From contig JAYXKI010000016.1 of assembly GCA_037892935.1 (NCBI GenBank), positions 434,001-498,000 of the forward strand: a DNA stretch of 64,000 bases. Direction: 5' to 3'. Source of the DNA: Phlebopus portentosus. Taxonomy: Eukaryota > Basidiomycota > Agaricomycetes > Boletales > Boletinellaceae. The notes under the pieces were generated by a model, which saw only the letters and a list, made by a program, of their open reading frames with translations, did not search any database and had not been told where the DNA came from. The translations under genes were made by a program, and so were the position numbers. The first letter of the stretch is position 1. Each line of letters opens with the position of its first letter. Shown here in pieces: positions 1 to 41,027 of the stretch.

Positions 1-1
1 G

Positions 2-841
2 CCACCGAGTGGTGCGCGGCCCTCGACAAGGTCACTCCAGTCACCGCAGCAGGACGACATTACCAGGAAATCACAACCCCAGTATAAATACGTCGTACCA
101 ATAGAAGACTCGAGCGCAGTCTCCAACGTTCTGACTCGTACTCTCAATACCCCTATCACCATCAGCCAACGAGAACTCCTCTCAATCGCCCCGGACGTTA
201 GGAAACAGATGAAGGAGCTGACGACGGCGAAGAGATACAACGCGGCTGAAGTCAAATATGGTGAGGTCGTGGATGATTCACTTACGTTACAAGTTGGGCG
301 TTTCGCGTCGGAACAAGTCGAAACAGGCGAAACACTTTCGACGGAAGAAATACTGGCGCTCAGTGGACAAGGCGTCGCCGCAGAGGCATCCATGCCCCTC
401 AGGACCGTTAGTGCGTTGATTGAAGATACCCTGGAAGTCGAATGCGTGCTTGACCAGGGAGCCGTAGTGTGTCTACTCCGCGAAGACGTATGGGAGAAGC
501 TTCAGATACCCCTATCCCCTGACAAAGGAATGATCCTCGAGACAGCAGACGCAGCTAGGTCATCTACCATTGGCATGATCTCTAATGCGAAGTTCACGAT
601 AGCCGGGATCGACGTTTCGCTCCAAGTGCAAGTCGTTCCGAACGCTCCCTTCCAGGCTTTGCTGGGGAGACCGTTTTTCGCTATTACGGAGTGCGAAACG
701 AAGGATTACACGTCAGGTGACCAACATATCACCTTAACGGACCCGAACGATCGCAGAAAGCAAAGCAAAGTGGCCACCGGAATTCGAACGATCGCGCGAG
801 GACCACTTCCAAAGGGTTTTCCGCAAGCGTCGAGGAACTGA
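2..841 (+). CDS. gag-protease polyprotein, C-terminal part (element A1)
   Basis: The frame is open from the first bases of the window, so the gene continues to the left; internal Met codons are not starts. The N-terminal visible part is Pro/Ser/Gln-rich. From about residue 130 there is a retropepsin-like domain with the catalytic-loop motif LDQGAVVCLL and a later LLGRPFF segment. Family enzymes normally have D-T/S-G at the active site; here the triad reads D-Q-G, and A2 has the same. The product would process Gag and Pol in the virus-like particle. The frame ends at TGA 839-841; pol lies in the -1 frame, reached through a slippery heptamer at 814-820. Confidence 0.85.
   Translation, partial: PPSGARPSTRSLQSPQQDDITRKSQPQYKYVVPIEDSSAVSNVLTRTLNTPITISQRELLSIAPDVRKQMKELTTAKRYNAAEVKYGEVVDDSLTLQVGRFASEQVETGETLSTEEILALSGQGVAAEASMPLRTVSALIEDTLEVECVLDQGAVVCLLREDVWEKLQIPLSPDKGMILETADAARSSTIGMISNAKFTIAGIDVSLQVQVVPNAPFQALLGRPFFAITECETKDYTSGDQHITLTDPNDRRKQSKVATGIRTIARGPLPKGFPQASRN
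814..820 (+). other. Putative -1 ribosomal frameshift site GGGTTTT (A1 gag-PR/pol)
   Basis: In the gag-PR frame the bases are read G GGT TTT, fitting the X XXY YYZ rule. Slipping back one base gives a pol frame open from here through 948. The trans-frame residues after the site (S-A-S-V-E-E-L-I) match those of A2 (S-A-D-V-K-E-L-I). I see no strong stem immediately downstream in this copy. Confidence 0.7.
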
Positions 842-3800
842 TTGAGAGAAATCGGCGAGACGAGAATGGTAGTAACCAATTGCTGGTTCAGGTATTTTCT
901 TATGATTTCGAATTTATTTCACACATGATCCCATCTCTTTTCAACCAATGATTGCCTTATTTATTAAACAAAAATTGCTATACTACTGACAAAGAAGAAC
1001 GGTCATATCGTTCATGTGTTTTAGAAACCCCAGAAGAAGAAGACGCGGCGGTAATGGCTTACAAACGAGTAGCGCAGAAAGTCAGGCCGATCCCGGGAGT
1101 CCTTCCAGAAGAATACAGGATCGTACGAAGGCAGCATCCGGATCCGTTGAGAGAGATGCCCGAGATGCCAGTTGTACCGAAGCCGTTCGAACCCACGGGT
1201 CGTGTAACCGCCGAAAGGATGGAAGTACTGAAGATCGACGAGAATACCTTTCTGTGGCCGGCGGAGAGGTTATTAGTGAAGAATCTGATTATGTTGCAGG
1301 AAGAAGCGTTAGCGTGGACCGAATCCGAACGCGGAACTCTCGATCCGACGTATTTCGACCTGATACGCATTCCCACGATACCGCATATACCGTGGCAGCA
1401 CAAGAGCATTCCAATTCCCCCGGGAATTCATGAAAAGGCCCTCGAACTTATTCGAGAGAAGATTCGCAACGGGGTTATTGAACCGTCGAATTCGTCGTAT
1501 CGATCCAGATGGTTTTGCTTGGTAAAGAAAGACAAAGAAACGTTGCGATCCATCATCGACTTGCAGGATCTTAATGCGGTTACGGTCAAGGACTCGGCAG
1601 TACCACCGAACGTCGAAACGATCGCGGAGAGCAGTGGTGGACGAGCTTGTTACACGGAGTTGGATTTATTCGTGGCATTCGATCAAAGAAAGCTGGACGA
1701 ACAATCTCGAGATCTTACTACGTTCCAGACACCCTTGGGAACATTTCGAATGACGGTTCTACCAATGGGATACACCAATTCCTTGCAGATTATGCATAAC
1801 GACGTGGCCTTTATCCTTCAGGATGAGATTCCGCACGTTACGAACCCTTTCGCAGACGATGCGCCCGGTTTAGGTCCGAAATCGCGATACGAGCTACCAG
1901 ACGGTTCGTACGAGACAATACCGGGAAACTCCGAGATTCGTCGTTTCGTGTATGAGCATATATGCGATGTGAACAGGATTTTGCAGCGAATAAAGGCCGT
2001 AGGAGGAACGTTTTCAGGAAAGAAGTTGGTGCCGTGTGTGGAGTCAGCGGTATTCGTTGGACACAAGTTAACGTACCAGGGACGCGAGCCAGACGATTCG
2101 AAAGTGCAGAAGATACGAGATTGGCCGCCATGTAGAACGCTGACGGAAGTCAGAGGATTTCTGGGAACGGTAGGAGTCCTTCGAATTTTCGTCAAGGATT
2201 ATTCGAAACTCGCTCGCCCGTTGTACCGCATGACAAGGAAGAACCAGATTTTCGCGTGGACAGACGAAGAACAGAACGCAATGGACGAACTAAAGCAAGC
2301 CGTTATTATTTGCCCGGCGCTGTGCGCAATCGACTACGCGTCAGACAACGAAGTAATATTGGCGGTAGACTCGTCTATTATTGGAGTTGGTTGGTATTTA
2401 GGACAAGAGCACTCGGATGGAAGGCGAAGGATCAATCGTTTCGGCTCTATTAACTGGAATCAGACCCAGGCATCGTATTCACAGCCGAAAATCGAGTTAT
2501 ACGGCTTATTTCGAGCATTGCACGCAATGCGACTGTATCTCATCGGAGTCCGGAATCTAGTAGTCGAAATGGACGCAGCATACATCAAGGGGATGATCAA
2601 CAATCCCGACCTGCAGCCCAATGCGACCATTAACAGATGGATCGCAGGTATCCTTCTCTTCAGTTTCAAGCTCAGACACATCCCAGCAGCCGATTTCCGA
2701 TGTACCGATGGATTATCCAGACGAAGAGCAGCTGAAGAAGACCCCCCTCCGGATGAAACGTACGAAGACTGGGTAGACGAAACATACGGTTTTGCGATAG
2801 AAGAGCCGGTTTCGACATACCAAGTAGCGCAACAGGGCGGAACACCTAGCGAAACAGCGACCGGAAACCTGTTTCCTTCTACAGAATCCGCGAGAAGGAA
2901 GGATAGCCGCTTAGATGACGTCACGAAGCTAATCACGCATCTCACACGCCCAGACAATCTTAGCGATAGTGGCTATGCGAAGCTAATCAGGTACGCAGCT
3001 GACTTCTTCGTGAAGCGAGGCCGTCTGTGGAGAAAGGCGCGGAACGGCCGGCACCAAGTCGTAATAGAAGCGAAACGCAGGTGGGACCTAGTCAAGCAAG
3101 CTCACGACGATCTAGGACACAAAGGAATTTTCTGCACTCGAATGCGACTGCTGGAGAGATTTTGGTGGCCGTCCTTAGGACAGGACGTGAAGTATTTCGT
3201 GCGCACCTGTCATGAGTGCCAGATACGCCAGACGAAGAATATTCTTATCCCACCGAACGTACCGGAGGTAGCCCCTCTGTTCCAACGCATCCATATTGAC
3301 TCAAAGGTCATGCCGAAATCGAGTGGATTCCGATATATCGTGCATGCGCGTTGTTCGTTAACCGCGTATCCCGAATTTAGACTTCTTCGTGAAGAAACTG
3401 GTAAGACCGTAGGCCAGTTTATCTTCCAGAACCTTTTGTGTCGATATGGAGCATGCCCTGAACTCGTTACCGATAACGGCACACCATTCGTTGCCGCGCT
3501 AGATTACTTGAAGACGCGGTATCACATCAACCACATTCGGATTTCGTCATACAACTCACGCGCAAATGGATTAGTCGAATGCAGACATTTCGATGTACAG
3601 GAAGCCTTGATTAAAGCTGCAGACGGTAATGACAAGCGTTGGAGTGATCACGCTGACTCGGTATTTTGGGCAGAAAGAATCACGATCAACAGAGCAACAG
3701 GAATGTCCCCGTATTACATGGCCCATAGAGTCGAAGCAGTTTTGCCTTTCGACCTCGCAGAAGCAACATACCTAGCACCGCCGCTCGATTCGCCAATTAC

Positions 3801-4263
3801 GACGTCGGAACTCATCGTAATACGTGCGAAACAACTCCAGAAACGTCCAGAAGAGTTGGATCGCGTTGCGAAACTCGTCATGAATGCAAGGCATGCATAC
3901 ACGAAGCAGTTCGCCGAGGTGGAGAAGCATAGAATCAAGGACTACGACTTTCAGCCAGGAAGCCTCGTACTCTTGCGAAACACGCGTATCAAGATGGAAC
4001 TCAATCGTAAAACGAAACCCCGCTATTTAGGCCCCTACGTGGTAGTTTGACACACCCAAGGCGGTTCGTATATCGTCGCCGAACTCAATGGAGCGGTTTC
4101 GAAACTCCGAATAGCAGCGTTTCGCCTGGTTCCGTACTTCCCGCGTTCGCATTTAACTGTTCCGGTGACCAAGCTCATTGGATCGCACGAAGATGATGAC
4201 ATACCCAAAATAGAAGATTCGCCAGAGAAATTCCCTGACGATGAGTCCCAAAATTCCGATTAA
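820..4263 (+). pseudogene. pol polyprotein of A1: reverse transcriptase, RNase H, integrase (two TGA)
   Basis: This frame is -1 to gag-PR and is open from the heptamer, with TGA only at 949-951 and 4048-4050 before the natural TAA at 4261-4263. RT spans about 1430-2240. Its catalytic box is FADD (1849-1860), followed by an insertion typical of this fungal clade. RNase H follows (about 2340-2720, motif AVDSSIIGVGWYL). Integrase has an HHCC zinc finger (H-X3-H, CHEC near 3100-3225) and D-D-E residues (IHID, VTDNGT, then the E of VECRHFD). No chromodomain is present. In A2 the segment after 4050 continues in frame, so the second TGA is a nonsense mutation. It would act with PR in the particle and nucleus to copy and insert the element. 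Confidence 0.88.
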
Positions 4264-4707
4264 ATCATTCATTTCCCTTCATATATGCTCCTTACTTATT
4301 TCCGATTCTCTCTCTCCTCTGATCAATTCTAATCTTCCAATTCTCCTTCTATAGTTTCGTCTCTGCTAGCGTGATCCACAATAGGATCTAACGCGTGTAC
4401 TTTTACTTAATACGTAGTTCCGCACGGTTTCGCCGTTCAAAACAGCGGAACGACGGCGAAACGCCTCATTTCACTTCGTATCAGTTTCCTTTCATCCTAT
4501 TCCTTGAATTCTTTGATCTATTCTTCTAGCCTTCACTCAGTCTCGCTCGATCGCACGAAAATTCACAAAAACCGAAACAAAATCGTATAAATTAACTATA
4601 AAAACAACTATGTACAGTACAAGTTATTTTTCTTTTTCTTTTGTCCTTTTCTTTTTCTATTTTACAAAAGTCCGACCAGGACATAGAGCATACGCGATGA
4701 TTATACT
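4264..4707. other. Convergent intergenic region of A1 with hairpin
   Basis: This AT-rich stretch separates the pol stop from the stop of the antisense gene. The best structure is at 4427-4462: GTTTCGCCGTT is followed by its near-perfect reverse complement (3-nt bulge), with an inner CCGTT/AGCGG stem around CAAAAC. A similar hairpin with the same CAAAACAGCG core lies at the equivalent place in A2 (30454-30472). A role in 3' end formation for the two converging transcripts is inference. Confidence 0.5.
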
Positions 4708-6999
4708 CTATTCCCGAGCCCTACCTTTCCCCTTCGACTGACGAACCCTCTCCACTTCCCCTCTATCTTCCTCTTCCTCGTCTTCACCTTCCCCCGTCTT
4801 CACCCCAGCCAACTCGAGCAGCAGACGACGATCCGCGTGCGCCTGCGCTACGAGGACGCTGAATTTGTTCAGCATCCGGGACAGGACCTTGTCCCGGTGA
4901 TCCATCCGCGCCAGCACGAACTGCAGCTCGGATTCCCCGACCTCCCGCTGCAGAGCTTCATGCTCGACGCGACCACCCACTGATCTGGCCGCCAGAGCCG
5001 TGACTTTCCGGCGTTTTGCTTCCCGATCGCGCGCCTCCCGAGCTGCCTTACGCTTTGCGGCTACAGCCCTGCCCTTCGTGGCTAGACTACAGCCCTTCGC
5101 CTGCTTCAAGCACGGAGCGCAGGTCCTCTGCGGAAGACCCACGCAATCACGGCCACGCTTCTGGCACTGGTCGCACGGAACCCGATGACGAACGCGCCCA
5201 TCGCTCAATCGTTCGTCGTCGTCGTCGTCATCATCGTCGTCGTCGTCATTATCGTTGTCGTCACCACCAGAACCACCACCATTAGCCGGAATCCTAGAAG
5301 GACCAGCCTCAGGTTGAGACGACGCTCGTCGTGCCGGAGAAACGTGTCTCGCTTGCGTTTCGACAGTTTCGCGCGGAACAGCAGCAGTACCGAGATTGTT
5401 GTTGTTGTTGTTGCTGTTGTTGTTGTTGCTCGCGGTATTGAGAGCCTGAATCTCTTCAAGGCTTGCGTCCGCCTCAAACGGCTCATTCGCCTCCATTCCC
5501 ACATCACCGATATCCATTCCTCCGTCGCCTGGACTCATGACAACGGAGTCTTCTCCCCGATGACCAGGAGGAGGACTCTCAGGACTTTCCTGAATCGCAG
5601 GAGTCTCCTCGTCCGAGTCCACCACTTGCCGAACACCACGAACGCGGCGAGTCCCTGCATCCAGCCGTCGTCGCATGTTGGCCTCGATTTCGGCAGCCAT
5701 CCGGGAGATTTCGGCGCGTTGAGCAGCGCGTTCTTCTTCTTCTCGTCTTTCACTCTCGCGAAGCTCAATCTCGAGCATTGTAGGTTCGAGTGAGGTTAAG
5801 GGTGTAGAACGGCTAGCCCCTTCCAAACGTTCCGCTCCGGTTTCGAGCGTTTCGACCGGTTCCGCGACCTCTCCGTCCTCGATCGTTTCGCCAGTTTCGA
5901 CCTGGAGAGGAGCGGAATCAACCTCCATTGGACTATCGACGTCCTGAGGCAGCATTTGATGTTGCTGCTGTTGTTGTTGTTGCGGAGGAAATGGTTCAGG
6001 CAGCATTGGTTGTTGCTGCTGTTGTTGTTGCAGTTGAGAGAAAGGTTCAGACAGCACTTGTTGGGATCGTTGTTGTTGCTGTTGTTGTTGTTGCGTTTCG
6101 GATTCCTGAGCACGAACGAGTTGATAGAGCCGACGACGAAGGATGGAATAGCCGTAGTATTCCCAGAGGAGCCGGACCGTTCTCAATTTCACCCTGTCGA
6201 TGCGAAGGATGTGCCCTGCACGAAGGTGTCATTGCTCGATATCCTCCCAATATTCGAACGCTTGCTGTAGGAAGGATTAGATGGAGATGATAGACAAGAA
6301 GAAGTACCTACGTGACTCCGGACAGCTTCGTCTCGCGTGTAGTCCGTGTTGCCGGTGAACCTCGCCGTTTGTTGGAACTTGGAGCTCTCCATTCTCACGT
6401 TCTCGAGAGCCTTTTTGATGTCAGGGCGCGGTTTCGGGAACATTGGAGGGAACGATTCGCCCAAGAAGAACCCACGAATCGAATCGAACGAGGCAGGATG
6501 GAATGGAACCCTGCGTCTGCGGAAGAAAGCTCGTCATTTGGTCTCCATCCTGGCGTAAAATTCCCGTCGATCGTAGTACAGCGTCCGTAGGAGAGCGTCC
6601 GTGTCGCAGTAGTTGGAGTACGCTGTCTCCGACCAGACTTCTTTCGTTCCTTTGGGACGGACTTGCTCCAACGCTTCCTTCCGTGCCTGTCGAATTTCGT
6701 TAACAAAAATTCTTGATTAGAGTGCGTGGTTTACGCACCGTGGTTGCCTTCCACCCATCCATCAAAGATTCCATCACCGGATTCGTCAACCACCGAACCG
6801 TCATCGAACCTGTAGGCGCGATCCATTCGACCGGTTTTGTCTTATCCGGCAGAATTACCGTCGTGACGCCATGGTCTAGTTCATCCATTGCCGACCTGGC
6901 CAAGGCGACGTCTGCCTCGAATTTCGCGACCGCCGCCTTCCAGTCGTCATCGGAGTTGATGGGTCCCAAAAGCGCGACAATTTCTTCGGAAGTGAACAT
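4708..6999 (-). pseudogene. Antisense three-exon gene for a Zn2Cys6-type protein (element A1)
   Basis: On the minus strand the ATG is at 6999. Exon 1 is 6999-6739. Intron 1 (6738-6687, 52 nt) starts GTGCGT and ends ACAG. Exon 2 is 6686-6312. Intron 2 (6311-6265, 47 nt) starts GTAGGT and ends CTACAG. Exon 3 is 6264-4708. All junctions are phase 0, giving about 730 codons. In-frame TGA codons at 6534-6536 and 6229-6231 are probably decayed CGA. The protein has a novel N-terminal domain, Gln-rich blocks (about residues 270-335), an Asn run, an Asp run, then Cys spacing C-X2-C-X6-C-X7-C-X2-C-X6-C. That fits the fungal GAL4-type binuclear zinc cluster. A basic stretch and a probable helical C-terminus follow. 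It lies between pol and the 3' LTR, opposite to the element. A regulator role is inference. Confidence 0.7.
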
Positions 7000-7127
7000 G
7001 TTGAAGAATGAAGAAGAGATGACAGCGGAAGAAAATTTGGACGCGACGCGTTATGCTTCGAAACTCCCACGCGTCGGATTGAGATGGGAGTGACCGCGGA
7101 CGGTCACTATTTCATGAACCCGGGAGA
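7000..7127. promoter_or_regulatory. Antisense-gene leader and polypurine tract of A1
   Basis: This segment lies between the antisense ATG and the 3' LTR. Its last bases (GAACCCGGGAGA, ending at 7127) match the purine-rich end in A2 (GAAACCGGGAGA, before 31635). They sit where the plus-strand primer of an LTR element should be. The antisense promoter is probably here or in the LTR. Confidence 0.55.
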
Positions 7128-8100
7128 TGAAGAGTAAGTCTGAAGCTTGGGAACGTACAGAGTCGTTACGACCAGTTCCGCGGTGTTCCGACTGGTTTCG
7201 CTCGGTTTCGACTGGTTTCGCTCGAATGAGTGAACTTAGCAAGAACGCCATAGTCCAGATGGCACGTGCACCGTTCTTTGATCGGCCATCAAGATGGGAG
7301 AATCACAGCATCGAGTTTGCACGCGTCGATCACAAGTCTCCGGACCTCGGATCCGCATTCCAGACAAAGAGATTTGACCCTGCAACCTCGTCCTCAGTCC
7401 CTCTCCTTTGTTAAACATCGCAGACTTACTTTGTCAGGCTAGCCAGAGCCCTTCCGAGTCGTTTCCCCGAGTTCCGCTTCGTTCCGCTCAAAGAGACCCG
7501 GTTCCGAAGGTTCCGCACATATTCTGACCTTTCTATATGCGTCCCCTTTAATCCATTATGCTCTCGTTCCAGACATGCTTAGTATTGTTTCTTTTGACCT
7601 ATGTGTCCCTTAAACCATTCCTATGCGCTCCTCTCCTTTGTAGATAGCGATATGCATTCCCTTTTCTTTATGACGTAGGTTCTCTGACCGCTGGGAGGCT
7701 CAGTCTTGGACGTTTAGTATAAATATAGCACGACTCTCGTAGTAGGAGAAAAGCTTAGTCGGAGCTGAGTGGGAGCTTAGCTTGCAGTTCTCACATCGTC
7801 TCAAAGCCTCTCGACCTCTAGTCTACTTGTTCGTAGTGGACTCTCTCGTCTCTATAGTCTAATATACGATATTTCGTGTTCTGTACAGTCGATCGGTGAT
7901 CTCTCTTTGCAGCAGAGCCGTTCGTACGTTCGTATAGTTCGCTGTGATCGTACAAAGGCTCCTCTTATTTCTCTCACCCGAACTGAAACCTCTCACCAAG
8001 GCCTATCCCTTCACTCCTTCGTGCCCTTAGGTAGTGACCGTTTGAAAAGGTTCGAACTATACACTCCCTGTCCGGCATCAGAACGTCCACAGGAGTTTCA
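7128..8100 (+). repeat. 3' LTR of element A1 (973 bp)
   Basis: It starts TGAAGAG directly after the polypurine tract and ends CACAGGAGTTTCA, the same terminal string as the A2 LTRs. TATA-like GTATAAATATAG lies near 7718. Apart from the 3' end and scattered blocks it is much diverged from, and shorter than, the A2 LTR (about 1340 bp), so A1 and A2 are separate subfamilies. At 8101 the sequence switches without a gap to chromovirus pol. Confidence 0.8.
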
Positions 8101-8548
8101 TCGGTCCCTTCAAGGTAGTGAAAAAGGTTGGTGCGAGCACAGACTCAAACTACCAAAGATGTGGAAAAAGGTTCATCCAGTCTTTAACGAGATCTTGCTC
8201 AAACTAGCTGTCCAACCATTCTTCAAGTTGCAAAAGAAGCCACCTCCACCGCCACCAGTGATCATTAATGAACAGGAAGAGTACGAGGTTAAAGAGATAC
8301 TCGACTCACATCTACATTGAGGCAAACTCCAATTTCTAGTCAAGTAGGTTGGATATGAAGAAGTGACATGGCAACTGGAGTCTGATGTCAAAGACAATGC
8401 ACAAGAATCAATTCAAGAATTCTATCGCAAACATCCTGGGGCTACGAGAAAGCTAATGATACCTCGACAAAGTCTACGAACACTGTACAACTTCATGTCG
8501 TTGGAAGGCTTATGTGGTTGGTCGGGATGCCCAACCTTGAAAGGGGGG
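8101..8548 (+). pseudogene. pol C-terminus with chromodomain (B1 remnant)
   Basis: The sequence aligns with the pol end of B3 (about 49222-49677): a GPF..VV segment, a poly-proline linker, the chromodomain starting EEYEVKEILDS, then CGWSG and the LKGG terminus. A 4-nt deletion near 8135 shifts the frame. TGA replaces CGA after DSHLH, and TAG replaces a Trp codon in the chromodomain (K-stop-VGYEE). In intact chromoviruses this domain binds methylated histone H3 and steers integration to heterochromatin. Confidence 0.85.
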
Positions 8549-9017
8549 TGATAAGGACTCGAACATTTTCCTTCTATTTTCTTACATCATCTTCTATTTT
8601 AATTTTCTTTTCTTTTCTTTTCTTTTATTTTCTTATTATTAACAATTACTCATCCATTTACCGGAACCTTCCATCAGGTTCCACAATGCTCACTAATCAC
8701 CCCATTCCCTCATCATGTGACTTCTCATTAGAGTAGACCTTTCCCATGCTTGAAGTCTATATAAGTAGATAGTTTGACTCATTTGTTTTCTTATCTTTCT
8801 ATTCTACTTACCTTCACTTTGACATAGGTATTTACTCTTGTATTATTAGTTTACTGAATTCTACTTACCTTCACTTCAACATAGCATTTGACAGTCTAGA
8901 CTTAAGTTCCATCTTAGCTGTCTCAATCAGAGCAACGTACTTAGGATTATCTCATCTACACTTATTTATTGTTGTATTAGCCTGTCTCGACTCAGCCTTT
9001 GGGCCATCCACCTAACA
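8549..9017 (+). repeat. 3' LTR of chromovirus B1
   Basis: It starts TGATAAGGACTCG and ends CACCTAACA, matching the B3 LTR (TGTAAGGACTCG ... CGCCTAACA) along its length. It contains TATA-like CTATATAAGTAG and the long arrangement with two copies of the CTTACCTTCACT block. It is clearly older than the B2 and B3 LTRs, with many C/T and G/A differences. Confidence 0.85.
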
Positions 9018-15195: not shown

Positions 15196-16535
15196 TGTAA
15201 GAAGCATCGATACGCTAGGTCCGAGATCATGCACATCACACGTGTTCTGCGGTAATCTGCATTGTAACAGCAGAACTCAGTGCGGATCGATTTGATTCGA
15301 AGTAGAATGGACTACTGTAGCCTCTCGCACTCAACCGCTGTGTAGGAAGAACTTTCGGACGCTTGAGCCACCCAGTCGAAAACTTACAAAGGCTGATTTA
15401 GCTAGCTCGTCTTACTAAACCCAGGCATGAGAGGTATATTGAAGGATCTGCAATCGGCCCCCAACGCCTCCCAAGTTTTGACCCGACGTGATACACTTCG
15501 GCTTTTCCCCCTTTTTGAGTCCCATATGCGTTCATATTTTGTTTTGATCCTTATGCTCATTATTCCGAGTGTGCTCACATTTCGTATTATGCCCTATGGT
15601 CATTATCTTGCCACCTTCCAGATATGCTCACCTCATCTTCTGTTCCCATGCGTTCCCTTATGATTATCACTTCCGATTTTCTTTCATTATGCTCCCTGAT
15701 GCTCCGATGGCTCAGGTTCGGACAAAGTTATAAATAGGCGAGCAACTTGTAGTAGAAGGGGAGTAGTTTCAGCCCAGGGGAGTTTTAACAGACGACAGTT
15801 TAGCTCGGGCTAGAAACCCACTCTAGCTACAGTCGAGACCAATTCGACTCTTTCTGTACTCTCCTAAACTCTATCTCTCATAAATACACGAAAGTTCTGT
15901 CTCATACGCCTCGAGTCTCCTGCTCTGCAGTCGTACTCAAGCCCAGTGTAATCAGTTCAACCCGTGTTGAAGTCTGAGACCCTCATCACTCCTCCTTACG
16001 CCTCCACGCTAGGTCTCACTTGAGCCCCTTGCATATCGCTTTGTTCCACATCGTATCGCCTCATTTCGTTTCATAACCTACCAAAACTCGTCGTAACTCA
16101 TCGTAACCTATTATATCATGTCAGATCCTCAAAAGGATCGCTTTTGTATCATCAGCGCTTAGGGGAAGTCCTTCTCTAAGCTTTGTCTCGTCAACTTCCG
16201 CCTCCAGGGTTCGAATCCATCGAGGGATTACCTGTGAGGACGTCGATTACCTTTGCACCGCCACTGCTGATCCCCCTTGCTTCGACTTCTTCTGCCTTGC
16301 TTCTTCGCCTATCTCCTTTGATCCATCCCCCCCCCCCTCACATACATCCAGCAGCCTTCAATCCCATTTCTCCTCCATCCCTTCCGGAACTACTCCAGAA
16401 CCCAGATTAATGCATCAGCCCTTCTCTAGTTTTCCCCCAAAGTCACCCTTCTTCTTCCCACTCATTTAAATCTTACCGAACAGCCCCCAAGAACTGTGAC
16501 ACTCCTCAGTAATCAGATGGTTCACAGGAGTTTCA
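15196..16535 (+). repeat. 5' LTR of element A2 (1340 bp)
   Basis: It is bounded by TGTAAGAAGC and AGGAGTTTCA. TATA-like GTTATAAATAGG lies at about 15728. A run of C occurs near 16330, and its length differs between the two LTRs, which explains the 3 bp size difference from the 3' LTR. Confidence 0.88.
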
Positions 16536-16713
16536 AGTGGAGCCCCCGGCGAGGGGGGAAATTCACTGTTCGTTCAAAACGAGTAACCAAACTCCAGGTA
16601 GTACTCGGACTACCTGAAGCCAATCAGCCCGTATCCCCGTAGTTCACCAAGCCTTACCCCAAGTCACACCTTGGACACCTAGGCAGAGGGCAAGTGCTAG
16701 AAGCACCACAGCA
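16536..16713 (+). promoter_or_regulatory. Primer-binding site and leader of A2
   Basis: Two bases after the LTR comes TGGAGCCCCCGGCGAGG (16538 onward). It starts TGG as primer-binding sites complementary to a tRNA CCA end do. The tRNA was not identified. The rest is the untranslated leader before the gag ATG at 16714. Confidence 0.55.
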
Positions 16714-23568: not shown

Positions 23569-23971
23569 TGTTAGGCAGACGGCTCAAGGGCTGAGTCGAG
23601 GCAGGCCAACACAACAACAAACAAGCGTAAATGAGATAATCCCAAGCACATCGCTCAGGTCAAGACAGCTAAGACGAGGCTTAAGTCCAGACCCTCAAAC
23701 GCTAGGTCGCAGTGAAGGTAAGTAGAATAGAAAGACAAGGAACGAAAGAGTCAAACTATCTACTTATATAGACTTTGGGCGTGGGAAAGGTCTACTCTAA
23801 TGGGAAGTCACATGACAAGGAATGGGATGATTAGTGAGCGTGATAGAACATTGTGGAATGTTCCGGCAAAAGGATAAATAAGCGCATAAGAAAAATAAAA
23901 AGAAAAGGAAAAGAATATTAAAATAAATGATGACGTCAGAAAAGAAAAGGAAAATGTTCGAGTCCTTACAT
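23569..23971 (-). repeat. 3' LTR of chromovirus B2 (short form)
   Basis: On the minus strand it runs TGTAAGGACTCG ... CTAACA. It lacks about 56 bp present in the B1 and B3 LTRs, with only one copy of the CTTACCTTCACTGCGACCTAG block where those have two. Confidence 0.93.
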
Positions 23972-26900
23972 CACCCCCCCTTCAAGGTTGGGCGTCCCGA
24001 CCAACCACATAAGCCTTCTGAGGACGTGAACTTGTACAGCGCTCGCAGGCTTTGTCGAGGTATTGTTAACTTCCTCGGAGCTCCAGGATGTTTGCGGTAG
24101 AATTCTTGGATTGACTCCTGTGCATTATCCTTGACGTCGGATTCTGGCTGCCAAGTCGCTTCCTCATATCCAACCCACTTGACCAGGAATTGGAGCTTGC
24201 CTCGATGCAGACGCGAGTCGAGTATTTCTTCAACCTCGTACTCTTCCTGCTCATCAATGATCACTGGTGGTGGTGGAGGTGGCTTCTTCTGAGATTCGAA
24301 GGACGGTTGGACAGCTGGTTTGAGCAAGATTTCATTGAAAACTGGATGGACCTTCTTCCAGGTCTTCGGTAGTTTGAGTCTGTATGCACTTGCGCCAACC
24401 TTTTCCACTACCTCGAAGGGTCCAAACCATTTATCCTCCATCTTCTTTGTCGGTCGGATCGTCTTAATATTTCATCCATCTAAGAAGACTCTCTGCCCTG
24501 TCTCATAGGTAATGGACTTTCCAGCATGACGGTCATAGAAGCGCTTTATGTCTTCATTCGCTTGGGTTAGGTTTCCTTGGGCGAGTTCATGCACCTCCTT
24601 GACATGCTTGGCAAATTCTTCTGCTGACAGGTTCGACGATGTTGTTCCAACCCCTGTGAAGTCTAAGGGGTGCATTCCTGTGTTAACGAAGAAGGGAGAC
24701 AGCTTTGTCGCTGAATGTTTGTGGTTGTTGTATGCGAATTCTGCGAGAGCCAGCCAGTCTGCCCAGTCCGATTGCCGATGGTTGACATATAGCCGAAGGT
24801 ATTGCTCTAGTTCTTGATTAATCTGCTCTGTCTGTCCGTCAGTTTGTGGGTGATACGCTGTCGACAGGTTGCCTTCAATGTGGAGGAGCTTGTACAACTC
24901 CTTCATCATCTTTGTGTCAAATTGCGCCCCTCAGTCGTGAATGATCTTCCGTGGTAGTCCATGTAATTGGAAGACGTGGTCTCTGTAGATCCTAGCCATG
25001 CCTTCTGCCGTTAACTTTGTCGTCGTTGGAATTGCATGGATTTGTTTGCTAAAGCGATCGACCACTACGCAAATTGCATTGAACCCATTTGATTCTGACA
25101 ACTCTCCGATTAGGTCGACCATGACAATCTGCCATGGCACCTCCGGCACCTTGTTAGGGTGTAAAACCTTTGCTCTTGTTGTCCTTAGAGCCTTCGTCTG
25201 CTGACAACGATCACATCCCCGCACATACACCCGCACATCTGCACTCATCCTCGGCCACCAGTACCTGCGTGCTATCAGCTGGATTGTCTTTGTCGCTCCT
25301 AGATGTCCTGCCAGGGTCGAGTTATAGTGTTCCGTCATGACATCCTCTCTGATGCTCGCTGGTACGTATAGCCAACGGCCCTTTCTCCACATGTCCCCTC
25401 TCTTCTCGACGTCCTTTAGCCTCAGTCCCTCATCCTCTTGTCTCTGTGCTTCCACGACCTTTTCGACGAGTACCTCTCTTGACATCTGAATCGTTCCTCT
25501 AACCAGCCATTCCTTCTTGACGAAAGTCACGTTCTCATTATTGTGCTCGCTCTTGTCATAATCAGCCCATTGTGACAACAGATCGGCCTTTCCCAACGTC
25601 TTCCCAGGTTTATGGACTAGCGTGAAATCGAACTCAGCTAAATCGAGTCGCCAACGAGCTTGTCGACGATTTAACTTCTGCAGTGATCGGAAGTACGTTA
25701 GATTTGCATGGTCTGTCCATACCTCAAAAGGTTGGTTAGCTCCCTGGAGATATTGTCGCCATTCCTTTAGGGCTTGAACAATGGCGAGCATTTCCTTGTC
25801 GTAAATCTCATAATTTCACTCTGCCTCTAGGAATGTTGACGACCGATAAGCGATCACCTTCCATTTGCCGTCTTGTTTCTGGAGAAGGACTCCACCAGTC
25901 GCAAAGTCTGACGCATCTGCTTCTACACGGAAAGGGTCCTCGTTGTTGGGTATCGCTAACACAGGAGGACTACTCAAACGACGCTTCAATTCCTCAAACG
26001 CTGCCTGCTCGTCTTCACCCCATTTTCATTCCACCTTACCCATTAGGGTAGTCAGGGGTTTGACGACCAAACTGTAATCCTTAACAAAACGTTGCAACCA
26101 ATTTCCTAATCCCAGGAATTGTTGCAGTTCGTGGACGTTCCTTGGAACTGGCCAGTCCTGTACTGCTGCCGTCTTCTTGGGATCCATTCGAACTTCGCCA
26201 TTGCCAATAATGTGTCTGAGGTACTTGACTGTGTCAACTTCGAACTCGCACTTCTGCGGCTTTAGGAAAAGTCCGTTTTGGTGAAGGATCTCAAAGACTC
26301 GTTTGGTGCGTCTGCGATGTTCTTCTAGATCATTCGAGAAGATGAGAATGTCATCGAGGTAAATGATGACGATACCCTCATGAATTAGCTCCCGAAAGAT
26401 GTTATTCATAAAGCCTTGGAACGTCGCTGGCACATTACATAAGCCGAAGAACATGACTGTGGGTTCGAATAAGCCTAGATTTGTCCAGAACGCTGCCTTC
26501 CACTTGTCTCCCTCACGAATCCGGATGTTGTAGTATCCCCAATGAACGTCGAGCTTCGTGATGTACCTTGCATCCTTAACCTTGTCGATGAGCTCATTTA
26601 TCAGCGGCAACGGGTATTTGTTCTTGACCATCCCTTCGTTGAGCTTTCGATAGTCTTGGATTGCTCATAAGCTCCCATCCTCTTTCTTGATAAAGAAGAA
26701 TGGTGACGCCATTGGGGACTTCGACTGTTGGATATGTCCTGATGCTAGGTTTTCCTCAATGAACTCCCTCATCGCTTCTTGTTCTTTTGGCGATAACGGG
26801 TAAACCTTGCAGTCGCTAGGTTTGAAATCCGGTTTCAGGTCAATAGCGTGGTCCCACGTTCGGTGGTTTGGTAAGCGTTTGAACGATTCCTCACTAAAGA

Positions 26901-27855
26901 CATCAGCGTATTCCTCCAGGTAAGGTGGCCATTTTGCTGCTTCCTTCATCCACACATTCCTCACAAACTCTTCATCTATCTCCTCACTCGACAGTGGCGA
27001 CTCACATTCGTCAGGGCAACGGGTGAACTTAACTGTTCCTAACCTCCAATCAATCTCAGGATTATGCTTCGTCAACCAGTCATGTCCGAGGAAGATGTTG
27101 CTTGACGCTAAGGATGTCACTGCCAGTCGAATCTCTTCCTCATGTTTCCCAAAGAACATTCGTACGACTACGTATTCCTTGATCAATCCAGCCTCGTTGC
27201 TTGTTCCGTCAGCATTGAAGACTGGTCTAGGCCAAATGTACCTTTGGGTGGGGAAACCATACCGTCTGACAAAACCTTCATCGATGCATGAGCCCGTGCA
27301 CCCTGAGTCGATCAGTGCATGAGCATCAATGAAGTTTTCCTCTTCGAGCAGGGGGTTTGACAAGTCTACTTCGTCATCACCTGCTACCTTTGGGTGTACG
27401 ATGCTAATGAAGGCGTCCAACTCCTTTCCTCCTGCTCGTTGCACGAACTGATCTGTGTCCACAATGCCCTTGCGCCATACCTCAGCCGCGCGTCTGCCTA
27501 CTACATCCCACACTGCTTCAGTGACGTTCACCTGAGCAACAACGTTCTCGTGGTAAGGTGCTTCCGCCACAACCTCATTTTTTATAGCAGTTTGATTCCG
27601 CTCTTCCTCTCTCAATTTGCCTGCTTGCGCATCTGTTCTTCTGACAAGTAAATCTTCATAGACTTCGAAGTCATCGTTGTCATCTTCAGATTCATCTGGC
27701 AGCACGTCGGTAAGGATCTTTCAAAGGACGAAACCATCACTGGTATTCGCATCTTGATATTGTACAACAGGACAATTATATTTTAACGAGTCCAACGAAA
27801 AGAGTCCTTTAGGAGACCGACCAGTCGTTCCGACGTCTACGCCTGGTCTTCTGGA
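23972..27855 (-). pseudogene. pol of chromovirus B2 (PR, RT, RNase H, integrase, chromodomain)
   Basis: On the minus strand the frame follows the shift site at 27855-27861. The domains match B3: protease loop [12 protein letters not shown] box YLDD (about 26358), RNase H, HHCC finger (CDRCQ near 25205), integrase core and a chromodomain (about 24240-24090). Six nonsense codons lie at 27721, 26665, 26026, 25816, 24931 and 24472 (lowest coordinate of each). Five are TGA where B3 has CGA; one is TGA for TGG. The frame stops at 23972. Confidence 0.9.
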
Positions 27856-29366
27856 AAACCCTCACCTTCTATGAGTTCTTCCAGCTCAGCGGGTACTGCT
27901 CGTACATCGACATCGTCATCCTCTTTGAAGGAGGATTCCTTTGCTTGGCCGAGTTCCTCGAAGAGCGCCTTTCTGTCTGCTGGGACGAAGGCTGCGATGA
28001 TGGCACATATTGCTTCACGACCTCGCGGGCATTCCCTGATGTAGTGGCCCACTTGACCACACTTGTAACAAGCACGGGTATGACATGCCTGGTTTATCAT
28101 CACATCCATGGGTTGTCCTAAGCCTCCATACGTTACTCCCATAGCATCACAACGATCTTGAGCGGGGGGTATGAAAGGACGGGCTGCTTGTTGAGGCAGC
28201 ATGAAACATCTCATTGGTGGTGTCAGAACCAGTTTCATTGCTGTCGAACTAATTGTCTTTCTCCGATGTTCAGCCATCAGGTCCCTGATTTGGCGCTCGA
28301 CCCTATTGACCTTGACAGCGGCCTTCTTGAACTCTTCGTACGACATTGGTTCATTGGGCAATCTCATGACACCTTCAACAACCTTTGGGTTTAGCGCCCT
28401 CTTCAGACGACTCATCAACCATTCATCGTGTGCCTCTGTTGCTAGGCCAGCATCCACTCGGCAAATGTCAAACTTGTTGAAGAACTCATCAGCATTGAGG
28501 TCTCCTTGGTACATCGCATCTAGTCGTTCGAAGGCTTTCTGAGATCTGGCAGGGTCATCAAATGACGTGTCCAGCTTCTTCAAGAAGGCATCCCAGCCGT
28601 CCGTGAATGTCAGGTTGCCATCTTCATCGACTGCTCCACTGGTGTAACTTTCTGCCCAGCGAGCCGCAGCACCACTCTTCATGTACGACAGGGCGAACAT
28701 AATCTTACTCTTGTTTGTCCTGAACTCTGATTCAGATGTGTAGATGTAGAGGCGCAGCTCTCGCTTGAAGTCCACGTAATCGTGTTCGCCATCGAAGTCT
28801 CTTGGTTTGGCGAAGTGGACCTTCTTCGACACCTTTGATCCTTGGTTCGCACCTTCGCCTGCAGCTTGGAGCGCTAGTGCGACCGCCGTCGCGAGATCAG
28901 TCATCGCTTCCTTTGACAATGACATCTTGTGTTCTTCTTCTTCTTCTTCTTCGTCTTCTTCACTCGGTATAAGTGGTGCTGGTTCTCGGAATTTTCCAAA
29001 CGCCGGTGAAGGCTCGACAGGGGGGGGCAACGCTTGAGTGGTCAAACCCGATGGGTCTGGTAAGGGGGCCATTGATTGCATCGGAGTAGGGGGTGAGGGC
29101 TCGTCTACGTCGCCTTCTTGTTTCACTCTCCAGTGGAGGGACTTTCCTTCCCTCTGGGAGTACCACCTCTTGGCAGTCTCGTCCCACCAAGTGCCAAAGA
29201 CTTGATTTCCTGCTTTGACGATGTAATGTCCTCGCGAAGCACTCCACCTAGAGTTCGCAGGGAGGGCTGCTCGTTGCTCGTCAGTTAGCTCCACCTTGAT
29301 AGGCTGGGGTTGGAACGGGGATTGGGATGCTGTTCGGGCGGGACCGACTTTGGATAACCGGCTCGT
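27837..29366 (-). pseudogene. gag of chromovirus B2 (start codon lost)
   Basis: The frame is otherwise intact, but the ATG used by B3 (44285) is ACG here (29364-29366), so normal initiation is lost. It contains a Trp/Tyr-rich N-terminal segment, an acidic stretch, the capsid domain (FDGEHDYVDFKREL) and one zinc knuckle CYKCGQVGHYIREC. The product would form the particle core. Confidence 0.88.
27855..27861 (-). other. Putative -1 frameshift site GGGTTTT with stem (B2)
   Basis: It is in the same phase and context as 45787-45793. After a 6-nt spacer (CCAGAA) comes GACCAG pairing with CTGGTC further on. One loop base differs from B3, so the stem is conserved. Confidence 0.75.
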
Positions 29367-29710
29367 CTTTGAAATTGACGACTAAACGAAAGGCTCTGAG
29401 GTAGATAATGAAGGAGATACTAGTCAACGACTGGACTCTATGCGTTACCCACGAGAAGGTTTGATGGGAGTTCCAGAGGAGGGTGATTCGGAGCGCCACA
29501 GTGATATGATTGGTTGATACTTCGGGTACTATCGGGTCACGTCGGAGTCAATTGGACTTTGACGGGCAAGATAGGGGTTTATTGTCTGCACGGTAGGAAC
29601 CGGGTTTCGTTCGATGTCGTCCTTCGAAGATATACTTCAGGGGACACGTCACAGGCGAGCGCTCGACGACAACGGAATCGGGTGTGAGCCAGAGGTAGGT
29701 CTTTCTATTA

Positions 29711-30112
29711 TGTTAGGCGGACGGCTCAAGGGCTGAGTCGAGGCAGGCCAACACAACAACAAACAAGCATGAATGAGATAATCCCAAACACGTCGCTCAG
29801 GTCAAGACAGCTAAGACGAGGCTTAAGTCCAGACCGTCAAACGCTAGGTCACAGTGAAGGTAAGTAGAATAGAAAGACAAGGAACGAAAGAGTCAAACTA
29901 TCTACTTATATAGACTTTGGGCGTGGGAAAGGTCTACTCTAATGGGAAGTTACATGACAAGGAATGGGATGATTAGTGAGTGTGATAGAACATTGTGGAA
30001 TGTTCCGGCAAAAGGATAAATAAGCGCATAAGAAAAATAAAAAGAAAAGGAAAAGAATATTAAAATAAATGATGACGTCAGAAAAGAAAAGGAAAATGTT
30101 CGAGTCCTTACA
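29711..30112 (-). repeat. 5' LTR of chromovirus B2
   Basis: It is the partner of 23569-23971, ending at the TGCAG duplication. It contains TATA-like CTATATAAGTAG on the minus strand. Confidence 0.93.
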
Positions 30113-30788: not shown

Positions 30789-31500
30789 TTACTCTTCCTC
30801 CTCACCCCTTACCACCCTTCCTAGCACACTGGTCTCGGCCAGCATCTCCTCCGCTAGGTTGCGCAGTTGATCCGCAGCGCAAAACAATACACGCGTGTGC
30901 CTCTCCAAGGCCGCCATCTGGAAATGGACGGTGCTCTCATCCGTCCCGGCAACCAACTCCTTGATGTCACTCACCTCGAGGACAGGCGCAACCGGCATCC
31001 TCAGCACCTGCGCCATTGCACATCTCGCATTCCACCTGCTCATTCTGCAGGTGATGTGCAGCCCTTCTGTGCGTAGCCAGCTCGCATCGCCGCCTGGCCT
31101 TCGTGCGGCAGTAATCACAGGCCTGCCCAGAGAAACCCTCACAGACCCGGCCTGTCCTCGTGCACCTCTCACACCTCTCATCATGCATGACCCAGCCACC
31201 GGCAGCAGACGAATTGCTGCTGCTGCTGCTACTGCTGCTACCGTCCCCACCATCGCTTTGGCTTCCCTCATCCTCTTCCATTCATTCTGCACTCGGAGAC
31301 TCACTCGCAGCCGGAGGATTGCTGTTGCTGCTGTTGCTCTCACTGACAGCACCGTCCAGAAGAAGAGGGGCACTTCGTCAAAAGCCCCAAAGTCATCATC
31401 ACCAGCTGGACCCCTAGAAGAGAAACTATTGGCAGCAAAAGGAATGTTGCTGCTGCTGCTGTTGCTGTTGTTGCTGTTGTTGTTGCTGTTGTTGGGACAT
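30789..31500 (-). pseudogene. Antisense zinc-cluster gene of A2, decayed
   Basis: It is the counterpart of the A1 antisense gene. On the minus strand the first ATG (31500) leads into a poly-Gln run. A Ser-rich acidic stretch follows, then Cys spacing C-X2-C-X6-C-X7-C-X2-C-X7-C (from CERC to CEL, about 31185-31100), also allowed for Zn2Cys6 clusters. A Leu-rich C-terminus lies in another frame (QMAALERHTRVLF ... near 30900). Frameshifts and stops separate the parts. The long N-terminal domain of the A1 version is absent, yet the ATG-to-LTR distance (135 bp) is almost the same as in A1 (129 bp). Confidence 0.6.
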
Positions 31501-31634
31501 GATGGAGAGAAGAGAGGATAGATGAACGGAACGTGTTGCGAATCGCATTTTACGCATCAAGAATCTAGAGACGCCAAGTCTAACCCTATTGGGAGCATGA
31601 CTGCAGACAGTCACAATTTCAAGAAACCGGGAGA

Positions 31635-32971
31635 TGTAAGAAGCATCGACACACTAGGTCTGAGATCGCGCACATGACACATGTTCTGCAGTAATCCGCA
31701 TCGTAACAGCGAAACTCAGTGCGGATCAATTTGATTCGAAGTGGAATGGACTACTGTAGCCTCTCGCACTTGACCACTGCATAGGAAGAACTTTTGGACG
31801 CTTGAGCCACCCAGTCGAAAACTTACAAAGGCTGATTTAGCTAGCTCGTCTTACTAAACCCAGGCACGAGAGGTATATTGAAGGATCTGCAATCGGCCCC
31901 CAACGCCTCTCAAGTTTTGACCCAATGCGACGCACTCCAGCTTTTCCCCCTTTTTGAGTCCCATATGTGTTCATATTTTGTTTTGATCCTTATGCTCATT
32001 ATTCCGAGTGTGCTCACATTTCGTATTATGCCCTATAGTCATTATCTCGCCACCTTCCAGATATGCTCACCTCGTCTTCTGTTCCCATGTGTTCCCTTAT
32101 GATTATCACTTCCGATTTTCTTTTGTTATGCTCCCTGATGCTCCGATGGCTCAGGTTCAGACAAAGTTATAAATAGGTGAGCAACTGGTAGTAGGAGGGG
32201 AGTAGTTTCAGCCCAGGGGAGTTTTAACAGATGACAGTTTAGCTCGGGCTAGAAACCCACTCTAGCTACAGTCGAGACCAATTTGACTCTTCCTGTACTC
32301 TCCTAAACTCTATCTCCCACAAATACATAAAAGTTCTATCTCATACACCTCGAGTCTCCTGCTCTGCAGTCGTACCCAAGCCCAGTGTGATCAGTTCAAC
32401 CCGTGTTGAAGTCTGAGACCCTCATCACTCCTCCTTACACCTCCACACTAGGTCTCACTTGAGCCCCTTGTGTATCGCTTTGTTCCGCATCGTATCGCCT
32501 CATTTCATTTCGTAACCTACCAAAACCTATCGTAACTTGTCGTAACCCATTATATTGTGTCGGATCCTCGAAATGATCACTTTCGTATCGTCAGCGCTTA
32601 GAGGAAGTCCTTCTCTAAGCTTTGTCTCATTGACTTCCGCCTCCAGGGTTCGAATCCATCGAGGGATTACCTGTGAGGACATCGATTACCTTTGCACCGC
32701 CACTGCTGATCCCCCTTGCTTCGACTTCTCCCGCCTTGCTTCTTTGTCTATCTCCTTTGATCCATCCCCCCCCTCACATACATCCAGCAGCCTTCAATCT
32801 CATTTCTCCTCCATCCCTTCTGGAACTACTCCAGAACCCAGATTGACACATCAGCCCTTCTCTAGTTTTCCCCTAAAGTCACCCTTCTTCTTCCCACTCA
32901 TTTAAATCTTACTGAACAGCCCCCAAGAACTGTGACACTCCTCAGCAATCAGATAGTTCACAGGAGTTTCA
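31635..32971 (+). repeat. 3' LTR of element A2 (1337 bp)
   Basis: It is preceded by the polypurine tract GAAACCGGGAGA, starts TGTAAGAAGCATCGA and ends AGGAGTTTCA. Differences from the 5' LTR are dominated by CG/TG and CG/CA pairs. Confidence 0.9.
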
Positions 32972-33076
32972 ACGGTCAAGAATTGAGTGAGATATGGTGA
33001 TTTTTATATTTCGAGACGTTCTGTATGACAAAAATCACAGAAGTCGCGAGTGACAATACATATAAAAAAGGCAGTA

Positions 33077-33349
33077 AGTTCTTTTGATTAGGTTAGATTA
33101 GATGTCTGGTTGGTAATATTAAGATGATAGTAAGTAGTAATAAGAAGTTGGCAGTGGTAAGTTTTTATTCTGTGCTTTTAGGTCACTTGAGTTATGCTGG
33201 TAACTGTTGACAAGATCTGTTACCAATTGCTTTTAGAATGCTGATTATATTAATTTGCTAATTGTGTTAAATTTAATGTAAGATTTTGAGCAGATCCTTT
33301 TACTGTGATATCTCTATTAGGCTCAATTTAGCCTTTAGCTATTAGATAT
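33077..33349 (-). repeat. Old repeat R, continuation and second fragment
   Basis: It continues the R copy broken by MITE1 (AGTTCTTTTGATTAGG) to the R terminus near 33300 (GAGCAGATCC). A second, deleted R fragment (GGCTCAATTTAGCC) follows and is broken by MITE2 at TA 33350-33351. Confidence 0.4.
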
Positions 33350-33351
33350 TA

Positions 33352-34435
33352 CAGCTAGTTGCAAAATTGTTGGCAATCATGTGATTTCGTCACTTTTCAT
33401 GTCATAAGAGCCTCAAAACACAAATAAAATCATATCTCACCCAAAACTCAACAGTTTCACATCATCTAAGTTGCTAAATTCATCTTTTTGAAAGGGCTTT
33501 CATTATGAAACAAAGATTGAGAGAATAGGTAAAAATGTGACCCCAAAATGGCGAAAATATTATTTTTTGCCTCTCCCTTGCATGTGCATTTTTTTCTGTG
33601 CTCCATGCTGGTCCAGCACCTCCCCAAAGCTGTCCAGAATGATAATATGATTATAATATGAATTTACAGACTGAGTTTGAGTTGAATTGTGTACCAGAAT
33701 ATACTGCTTTGAGGCATGCCTGAATTGCTCAAAACTCATCGTTCACCCCTAGCCTCCCAAGCTCCAGAAAAAATTCTTACAGGCCAGATTGATGCATAAA
33801 AATTCATTTTGGATATAATAGACTAGGTTTGTGTGCTAGCTAGGGCCTCAGCATCCACTGGTGAGCTGGGCTGAGCATAAGGTTCTAGTTGTATGCACTA
33901 TTCTAGATAGTATCTTCCCAGCTCACCAGTGGATGCTGAGGCCCTAGCTAGCACACAAACCTAGTCTATTATATCCAAAATGAATTTTTATGCATCAATC
34001 TGGCCTGTAAGAATTTTTTCTGGAGCTTGGGAGGCTAGGGGTGAACGATGAGTTTTGAGCAATTCAGGCATGCCTCAAAGCAGTATATTCTGGTACACAA
34101 TTCAACTCAAACTCAGTCTTTAAATTCATATTATAATCATATTATCATTCTGGACAGCTTTGGGGAGGTGCTGGACCAGCATGGAGCACAGAAAAAAATG
34201 CACATGCAAGAGAGAGGCAAAAAATAATATTTTTGCCATTTTGGGGTCACATTTTTACCTATTCTCTCAATCTTTGTTTCATAATGAAAGCCCTTTTAAA
34301 AAGATGAATTTAGCAACTTAGATGATGTGAAACTGTTGAGTTTTGGGTGAGATATGATTTTATTTGTGTTTTGAGGCTCTTGTGGCATGAAAAGTGACAA
34401 AATCACATGATTGCCAACAATTTTGCAACTAGCTG
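33352..34435. mobile_element. MITE2, 1084 bp near-perfect palindrome
   Basis: It is flanked by TA (33350-33351 and 34436-34437). The ends are CAGCTAGTTGCAAAATTGTT and its exact reverse complement. The arms of about 520 bp pair with few mismatches around a short centre (33875-33925). There is no coding capacity. R sequence continues on both sides, so insertion into R is direct evidence of mobility. The terminal sequence is nearly that of the Tc1-like element starting at 34469. Confidence 0.88.
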
Positions 34436-34468
34436 TAGGTTTTAGTAGTTGCACTTCCAGGCTTCTTA

Positions 34469-40420: not shown

Positions 40421-41027
40421 TCAAAAGAGTTTGAGAGTGTGCATACTACAGTATTCAACTGAGGAAACGTACCTAGACTGACTTTCTCCAGCTGGAGAAT
40501 TCTTCTGGAACTCAGGGCTAGGTGGAGGCATTTAGTTGTTTTCAGTGCTTTGAACAATAACAGCTGATACTCACAGCCCCTAACGGTAGCTCAAGAGGAG
40601 TGCATGACACTGCTCAGACAGAGTTTAAGTGGGGGGAGATCTGTATAGGAAAGGGGAGGAGTTACCAATGATAGTGGGAAGAGGCAAAGTGGGTACTAGG
40701 GATCATTCATCCCTGGCTCCCTTATATATGGAGATGAGCCGAATCTTACAAAGACTCAGCTGACTAACATCTAGGTTGCCTGACCTAGTCTCTATTATAT
40801 AGTGTGGCCTAGTACTGCGCACTTTCTTTGAATCTTTTTGGAGCAGAGAACACAGAGCTTGGACTAAAGTAAAGTACACAATCATCTCCTCTTCTTCACT
40901 TCCCTCTCTTCCTCTACACTCGACACCTCTGTACTCAGCCTCACCTTCTCTTTGTCTTTCCCCTTTACTACACTTTGTCACTCCCTCCTACACTCTATTC
41001 GATTGGTGGTGCTTCAAGCTCGCTTGG
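40421..41027. other. Region without a recognised gene
   Basis: It could hold 5' exons or the promoter of VA. Short open frames exist on both strands but none has features I would defend. Confidence 0.35.

Follow-up and report, generated by a model that had tools for sequence, protein, structure and literature searches.

A Ty3/Gypsy retrotransposon (family A) carries, on the strand opposite to gag-pol and between pol and the 3' LTR, a gene of three exons and two short introns, and purifying selection has acted on the protein that it encodes. The frame and the selection are observed; concerning the function, we infer that this is probably an accessory gene of the element, whose product would be a nuclear DNA-binding regulator that tunes or protects the element's own transcription.

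The family A element and its surroundings

The window, by which we mean the whole 64,000-nt stretch of DNA that was analysed, corresponds to positions 434001-498000 of contig 16 (C16); the genome searched comprises 38.4 Mb. Positions 1-8100 of the window are part of the family A element, and its 5' LTR lies to the left of the window. The main features are the following.

C16:430701-432328, family A 5' LTR, 1628 bp, left of the window
952..4050, plus strand, family A pol open frame with RT, RNase H and integrase zinc domain; stop at 4050 in this copy
4708..6264, minus strand, exon 3 of the antisense gene, 1557 nt including the stop; remainder of the N-domain, Q-, N- and D-rich tracts, Cys6 cluster, basic stretch, C-terminal helix and acidic tail; in-frame stop at codon 224 in this copy
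5089..5175, minus strand, Cys6 (Zn2Cys6-like) cluster from first to sixth Cys, residues 576-604 of the joined frame; coordinates derived from the residue numbers
6265..6311, minus strand, intron 2, 47 nt, GT-AG (GTAG...CAG)
6312..6686, minus strand, exon 2, 375 nt; in-frame stop at codon 138 in this copy
6687..6738, minus strand, intron 1, 52 nt, GT-AG (GTGC...CAG)
6739..6999, minus strand, exon 1, 261 nt, ATG at 6999, start of the N-terminal domain
7000..7127, no strand, 128 nt between the antisense ATG and the 3' LTR
7128..8100, plus strand, family A 3' LTR, with an internal loss relative to the 1628-bp 5' LTR

The 3' LTR matches the 5' LTR at 7128-7992 (99.3% over 865 bp) and again at 8052-8100 (the last 49 bp), and the middle part is absent. 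The sequence TCGG is found before the 5' LTR and after the 3' LTR, and we read it as a 4-bp target duplication. On our reading of the flanks (8101-8552 and the sequence left of the 5' LTR), family A was apparently inserted in a broken copy of another Gypsy family, the pol end of which resumes to the right of family A and matches the copies in the window at 84-85%. This other family is present in two inverted copies, at ~23569-30110 (minus strand) and ~43480-50130 (plus strand), which are ~94% identical; the former is nested within an element of family B. Further repeats of the window are an inverted repeat at 33339-34448 (532-nt arms, 98% complementary, 46 nt apart), one arm of which pairs also with 50536-51074, a six-base tandem repeat at 40873-41379 which gives a Pro-Phe repeat frame, and neighbouring direct repeats of 82-90 nt at 63689-64000 (77-99% identical, spaced 134 and 96 nt).

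Structure and distribution of the antisense gene

The preliminary description, made from the letters of the window, had proposed three minus-strand exons joined in one frame of about 730 codons with two stops, through introns of 52 and 47 nt, and this structure was confirmed to the base. Both exon junctions are in phase 0, and the exons join into a single frame of 730 codons; the in-frame stops at codons 138 and 224 make the window copy a broken one. The sense strand was rejected as the coding strand of this region, its three frames being interrupted in the window copy by 12, 20 and 17 stops. TATA-like words of the antisense strand are found 728 and 867 nt from the ATG and none near it.

Copies of the gene were collected with a 24-mer of the cysteine cluster, which matched 62 places of the genome at two or fewer mismatches. 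The 39 exact matches were taken, of which 31 are full-length and were aligned and eight are fragmentary and were dropped; the 23 places with mismatches were left out, and this choice favours copies that are intact at the cluster. All 31 aligned copies keep the ATG and the 261-nt length of exon 1, the 375-nt length of exon 2 and both introns in place. Intron 1 has GT...AG in 31/31 copies and a size of 51-53 nt; intron 2 is 47 nt long in every copy, and its 5' GT is lost in five of the 31. The frame is open across all three exons in 18 of the 31 full-length copies, 16 of which have GT-AG at both introns; for comparison, a test segment of pol is free of stops in 8/15 copies. Based on the reverse transcriptase, 127 candidate copies were seen at first look; 40 RT copies were scored and the antisense gene lies at the expected distance in 37, with no antisense-gene match at that distance for the remaining three among the matches listed. 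A conserved antisense frame in other copies of the family had been named beforehand as a check of the gene, and such a frame is thus present. The claim that the introns persist in the element also holds, both being in place in all the aligned copies, which is what copying from sense RNA would predict: lying on the opposite strand, the introns would not be recognised as such in the sense genomic RNA and would be kept through transposition.

Selection on the antisense frame

Variants were counted in the 31 copies against one natural open copy as reference, and CpG-type changes were separated. Non-CpG variants shared by at least three copies are 12 nonsynonymous and 29 synonymous (N12:S29), against an expectation of 29.0:12.0 (binomial P=5e-8), so that the dN/dS-type comparison over copies which the preliminary description had proposed reveals purifying selection in the shared variants. 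Shared CpG-type changes are biased in the same direction (N30:S34 vs expected 42.7:21.3, P 0.001). The bias is weaker for singletons (N68:S46 vs expected 80.5:33.5), as expected of changes that arose after insertion. Among the other frames, only one has this bias in the shared non-CpG class: the sense frame with the same third codon positions, in which the window copy has 20 stops. The constraint is weaker than that of pol (N9:S57 in 15 copies). When the antisense gene is counted in only those 11 copies that also served for pol, its non-CpG variants are N9:S8 for those found in at least three copies and N0:S12 for those found in two, so the strength of the selection signal depends on the sample. 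Looking at each part separately, the shared non-CpG counts are 3:3 in the N-domain, 8:20 in the low-complexity middle and 1:6 in the cluster and C-terminus; the signal therefore rests largely on the low-complexity middle, with small numbers elsewhere. Purifying selection has acted on the antisense protein.

The weight of the middle part bears on a reading without a protein, in which the frame arose by chance and the constraint comes from the GTTYCG arrays described below or from triplet repeats. Motif arrays do lie inside the frame, much of the N:S signal is found in the low-complexity middle, and the indels of the exons fall mostly in the triplet tracts for Gln, Asn and Asp, for which reason indels in multiples of three were rejected as proof of coding. 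The cluster and C-terminal part is biased as well, however (N1:S6 in at least three copies, non-CpG), splice signals are present, and the cluster retains its six cysteines across species and families; a chance frame is highly improbable.

It is also improbable that the antisense RNA itself is the regulator, through dsRNA, siRNA or interference with the sense RNA, and that the protein is of little weight. Passages of PMC7264820 give such action as one proposed for retroelement antisense transcripts. It leaves aside the purifying selection at the level of amino acids, the open frames, the phase-0 introns and the conservation across species and families, all of which argue for a protein.

Relatives in other species and in family B

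The best protein matches of the antisense gene are 97% and 95% identical and come from Sanghuangporus sanghuang. Annotated proteins of the same design are found in S. weigelae (P0003, 731 aa), in S. baumii (P0005) and, several times, in S. sanghuang; those of S. weigelae and S. baumii are known here as annotated proteins. Between an open family A copy and the S. weigelae and S. baumii proteins, respectively, the cluster is 89% and 97% identical, the C-terminus 88% and 85%, and the N-domain 82% and 71%. No homologues were found outside Sanghuangporus in protein searches that reach near relatives only.

A second element family of the window, family B, has its LTRs at ~15196-16536 and ~31635-32972, with a nested element inside, and contains remains of an antisense gene.

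30789..31600, minus strand, remains of the family B antisense gene beside the B 3' LTR; internal loss relative to L048/L049

The gene has the same position as in family A, and longer versions are found in the family B copies L048 and L049 and in the annotated protein P0007. The family B cluster has the spacing C-X2-C-X6-C-X7-C-X2-C-X7-C, and P0003, P0005 and P0007 have all six cysteines. The cluster and C-terminus of the two families align by hhalign with a probability of 96.6 (E 6.6e-10, 113 columns) and by BLASTP with E 2e-11 and 32% identity over the shared part; the N-terminal halves were not aligned by hhalign. When an alignment of the two is inspected by eye, a family B junction lies a single residue away from the position of intron 2 of family A, a suggestive observation at most. 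In pol, an integrase stretch is 72% identical between the two families. Set against this value, the divergence of the A and B homologues suggests that the antisense gene probably existed before the two families separated and that it changes more quickly than pol. Within family B, a comparison of copies with L049 gives N:S at 0.58-1.71 of neutral (non-CpG), a range obtained from few changes in decayed copies, and no sign of constraint.

These relatives bear on the question of whether the gene is passive cargo that the element took up from its host. A gene taken up as DNA typically keeps its introns, and the relatives are annotated as ordinary hypothetical proteins. The presence of the gene in 37 of the 40 scored RT copies argues against passive cargo, as do the family B homologue, which at ~30% identity over the shared part probably dates from before the split, and the result of the searches beyond Sanghuangporus within their range; we give this reading a low probability.

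The encoded protein and the Zn2Cys6 question

The protein consists of a helical N-domain, a Gln-, Asn- and acidic-rich middle, the Cys6 cluster, a basic stretch, a long C-terminal helix and an acidic tail. This is the layout of a transcription factor. The Gln-, Asn- and acidic-rich tracts noted earlier are all found in the joined protein, and the spacing C-X2-C-X6-C-X7-C-X2-C-X6-C is as first described and uses six of the seven cysteines of the protein. None of 200,000 shuffles of the protein of one open copy gave any Zn2Cys6-like spacing.

The assignment of this cluster to the GAL4-type binuclear zinc clusters stands in one part only: the spacing of the six cysteines is GAL4-like, but the Pfam Zn_clus model (PF00172, cut-off 21 bits) recognises none of the antisense proteins scanned, which were the window exon-3 frame, P0001, P0003, P0005, P0007 and the L049 family B frame. 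Also, none of the 60 places listed in a genome-wide Zn_clus scan is among the 62 antisense-gene places. GAL4-type clusters usually carry basic residues between the second and third cysteines, and the basic residues of the antisense-protein cluster are not at the usual places. An AlphaFold model of P0003, built from three sequences, is poor (mean pLDDT 43.2); it contains short helices at 576-580 and 594-601, one per CXXC, with pLDDT blocks of 72, 72 and 59, and the rest is poor. Because of the missing Zn_clus match and the poor predicted structure, the cluster is named ‘Zn2Cys6-like’ here.

Other comparisons of the protein gave no meaningful match. In a Foldseek search with the P0003 model the best E was 1.1, and a search of PDB sequences with the segment that spans the cluster and the C-terminus returned only RNA-binding protein 40 (E 0.55 and 0.59), which is irrelevant. 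Sub-threshold matches of the Q-rich-to-acidic middle to TFIIA (P0001 31.1 bits against a cut-off of 36.2, P0005 16.4 bits) were taken as an effect of composition. The domains of the VANC proteins (DUF1985/DUF287) had no match in the Pfam scan of P0001, P0003 and P0005 (E up to 10).

The lack of a Zn_clus match favours a different role for the protein, as an accessory factor whose substrate would be RNA or the integration complex, with a part in RNA export, in bringing cDNA into the nucleus or in the targeting of integration. The gene and the evidence of selection fit such a factor equally well, and a review of plant antisense ORFs names roles of the retroviral accessory type as possible (PMC7264820). 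The Q/N-rich and acidic tracts, the Cys6 cluster, the basic stretch and the helix, together with the phased arrays, would fit DNA binding better, and we consider an RNA or integration factor rather unlikely. A DNA-binding regulator remains our preferred reading.

GTTYCG arrays as candidate target sites

A short motif is enriched in family A. In a 10.4-kb stretch of the element CGAAAC is found 45 times and CGGAAC 26 times, against 10.4 and 8.4 expected from dinucleotide shuffles. Same-strand pairs of GTTYCG/CGRAAC number 14 at 10 bp, eight at 20 bp and five at 30 bp, against a background of 0.32 per lag. Array sites are spread over the LTR, the 5' internal part, the gap between pol and the antisense gene, and the insides of gag/pol and of the antisense gene; examples are given below.

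300-340, GTTYCG/CGRAAC array of family A
4417..4463, no strand, GTTYCG/CGRAAC array between pol and the antisense gene
5829..5900, no strand, GTTYCG array within antisense exon 3
7165..7220, plus strand, 10-bp-phased GTTNCG array of six units at the LTR start; read on the 5' LTR at offset 37, with 3' LTR sites at 7175-7215

Concerning the whole genome, triple arrays of GTTYCG at 10-bp spacing are found 450 times, against two for a reversed control pattern, and among the hundred or so places listed all but one, a simple repeat, resemble by eye variants of the family A array. CGNAAC sites are densest in family A, at 8.15 per kb; family B has 3.23, Gypsy family C 1.35, and two further stretches of the window have 2.14 and 0.45. 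Within the antisense gene 9 bp is the commonest spacing (three pairs), which would suit codon phase. Across 22 LTRs the non-CpG bases of the motif are variable at 2/55 positions, against 212/1329 elsewhere (P 0.012; three other comparisons were not significant), a weak sign that the motif is protected. A corresponding phased triple array in family B (GTTRCG) was rejected, with one hit against two in the control; the family B LTRs contain a few CGTAAC pairs at 10 bp. As a separate observation by eye, a VETGET peptide occurs both in the sense gag/protease frame (~310-345, plus strand) and in the antisense protein (~5860-5907, minus strand), both stretches being encoded by a CGAAAC array.

The GTTYCG arrays are possible target sites of the antisense protein, and we treat them as a candidate.

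Proposed mode of action

The steps of the proposed regulation are as follows. A promoter located within the 3' LTR or close to it would drive the antisense gene, and the introns, retained through transposition, would be spliced from the antisense mRNA. The protein would then enter the nucleus, where the Cys6 cluster, the basic stretch and the helical C-terminus may bind DNA, with the Q/N-rich and acidic tracts serving as putative regulatory regions. It would most likely target the GTTYCG arrays of the element itself, which have a 10-bp phase in the LTR and occur in the internal region too. In sum, the protein would tune or protect transcription of the element that carries it, in the way of HBZ in HTLV or VANC in VANDAL elements.

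A bolder form of this reading, which we put forward only tentatively, is a self-contained control system: the Zn2Cys6-like protein of the spliced reverse-strand gene might recognise GTTYCG at sites one helical turn apart across the LTR and the body of the element, coding parts included, and might thereby activate the element or shield it from silencing. Such a system would be an LTR-element counterpart of VANC, and antisense like HBZ.

Comparison with known systems

HBZ of HTLV is the product of a spliced gene and tunes or protects HTLV transcription, and it is a bZIP protein, whereas the family A protein has a Cys6 cluster. The HTLV 3' LTR has an antisense promoter, according to a passage of PMC7264820, and HBZ is nuclear, according to one of PMC11963269. 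The family A gene may be likened to HTLV-1 HBZ and similar retroviral antisense genes as an antisense gene that would be read from the 3' LTR and encode a nuclear regulator; we claim no homology.

VANDAL transposons, the second comparison, are not LTR elements. In Arabidopsis they contain many copies of a short motif, often as tandem repeats, which are targeted by their own anti-silencing protein VANC (parts of PMC5735166). Family A likewise carries arrays of a short motif, and the link between its protein and that motif is a candidate one. VANC contains DUF1985/DUF287, unlike the family A protein, which has no such Pfam match.

GAL4-type Zn2Cys6 factors resemble the family A protein in the cysteine spacing, in the basic stretch and helix that follow the cluster, and in their low-complexity tracts. 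They differ in that the family A cluster is near the C-terminus, is not recognised by PF00172 and has its basic residues at other places.

The closest parallels in position are antisense ORFs of plant LTR retrotransposons (aORF-3R), such as Grande gene23, RIRE2, Retand TRP28 and PvRetro13, which the relevant passages of PMC7264820 and PMC11963269 describe between pol and the 3' LTR, on the opposite strand, in most copies and with a suspected nuclear or DNA-binding role, as in family A. On the strength of these descriptions, the family A gene is set apart by its fungal host, its two short introns and its Cys6 cluster with Q/N-rich and acidic tracts; the main text of the Retand paper (PMC11963269) contains no word beginning with ‘intron’ or ‘zinc’. 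A fungal case is the antisense gene brtn of the Boty-like retrotransposons of Botrytis cinerea (Zhao et al. 2011, named in PMC7264820 and with its title in PMC8365987). By that title and mention, brtn is, like the family A gene, an additional antisense gene of a fungal retrotransposon; its host is an ascomycete, unlike that of family A. In a literature search which covered subscription journals only to a small extent, none of the matches listed describes a mushroom element with an antisense Cys6 gene. Antisense extra genes are thus already known in plant elements and in Botrytis Boty, as far as these sources go, and what is new here are the introns, the GAL4-like cysteine cluster, the mushroom host, the sharing of the gene by two element families and the candidate target motif.

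The function of antisense retrotransposon genes is called an open question in passages of PMC7264820 and PMC11963269. Family A combines introns, selection and a cysteine cluster in one gene, to which a sister family adds a diverged homologue and the element itself a candidate motif, and this makes the question of function directly testable. The finding would suggest that GAL4-like modules, which are common in the regulators of fungal hosts, were used by the parasites of these hosts as well.
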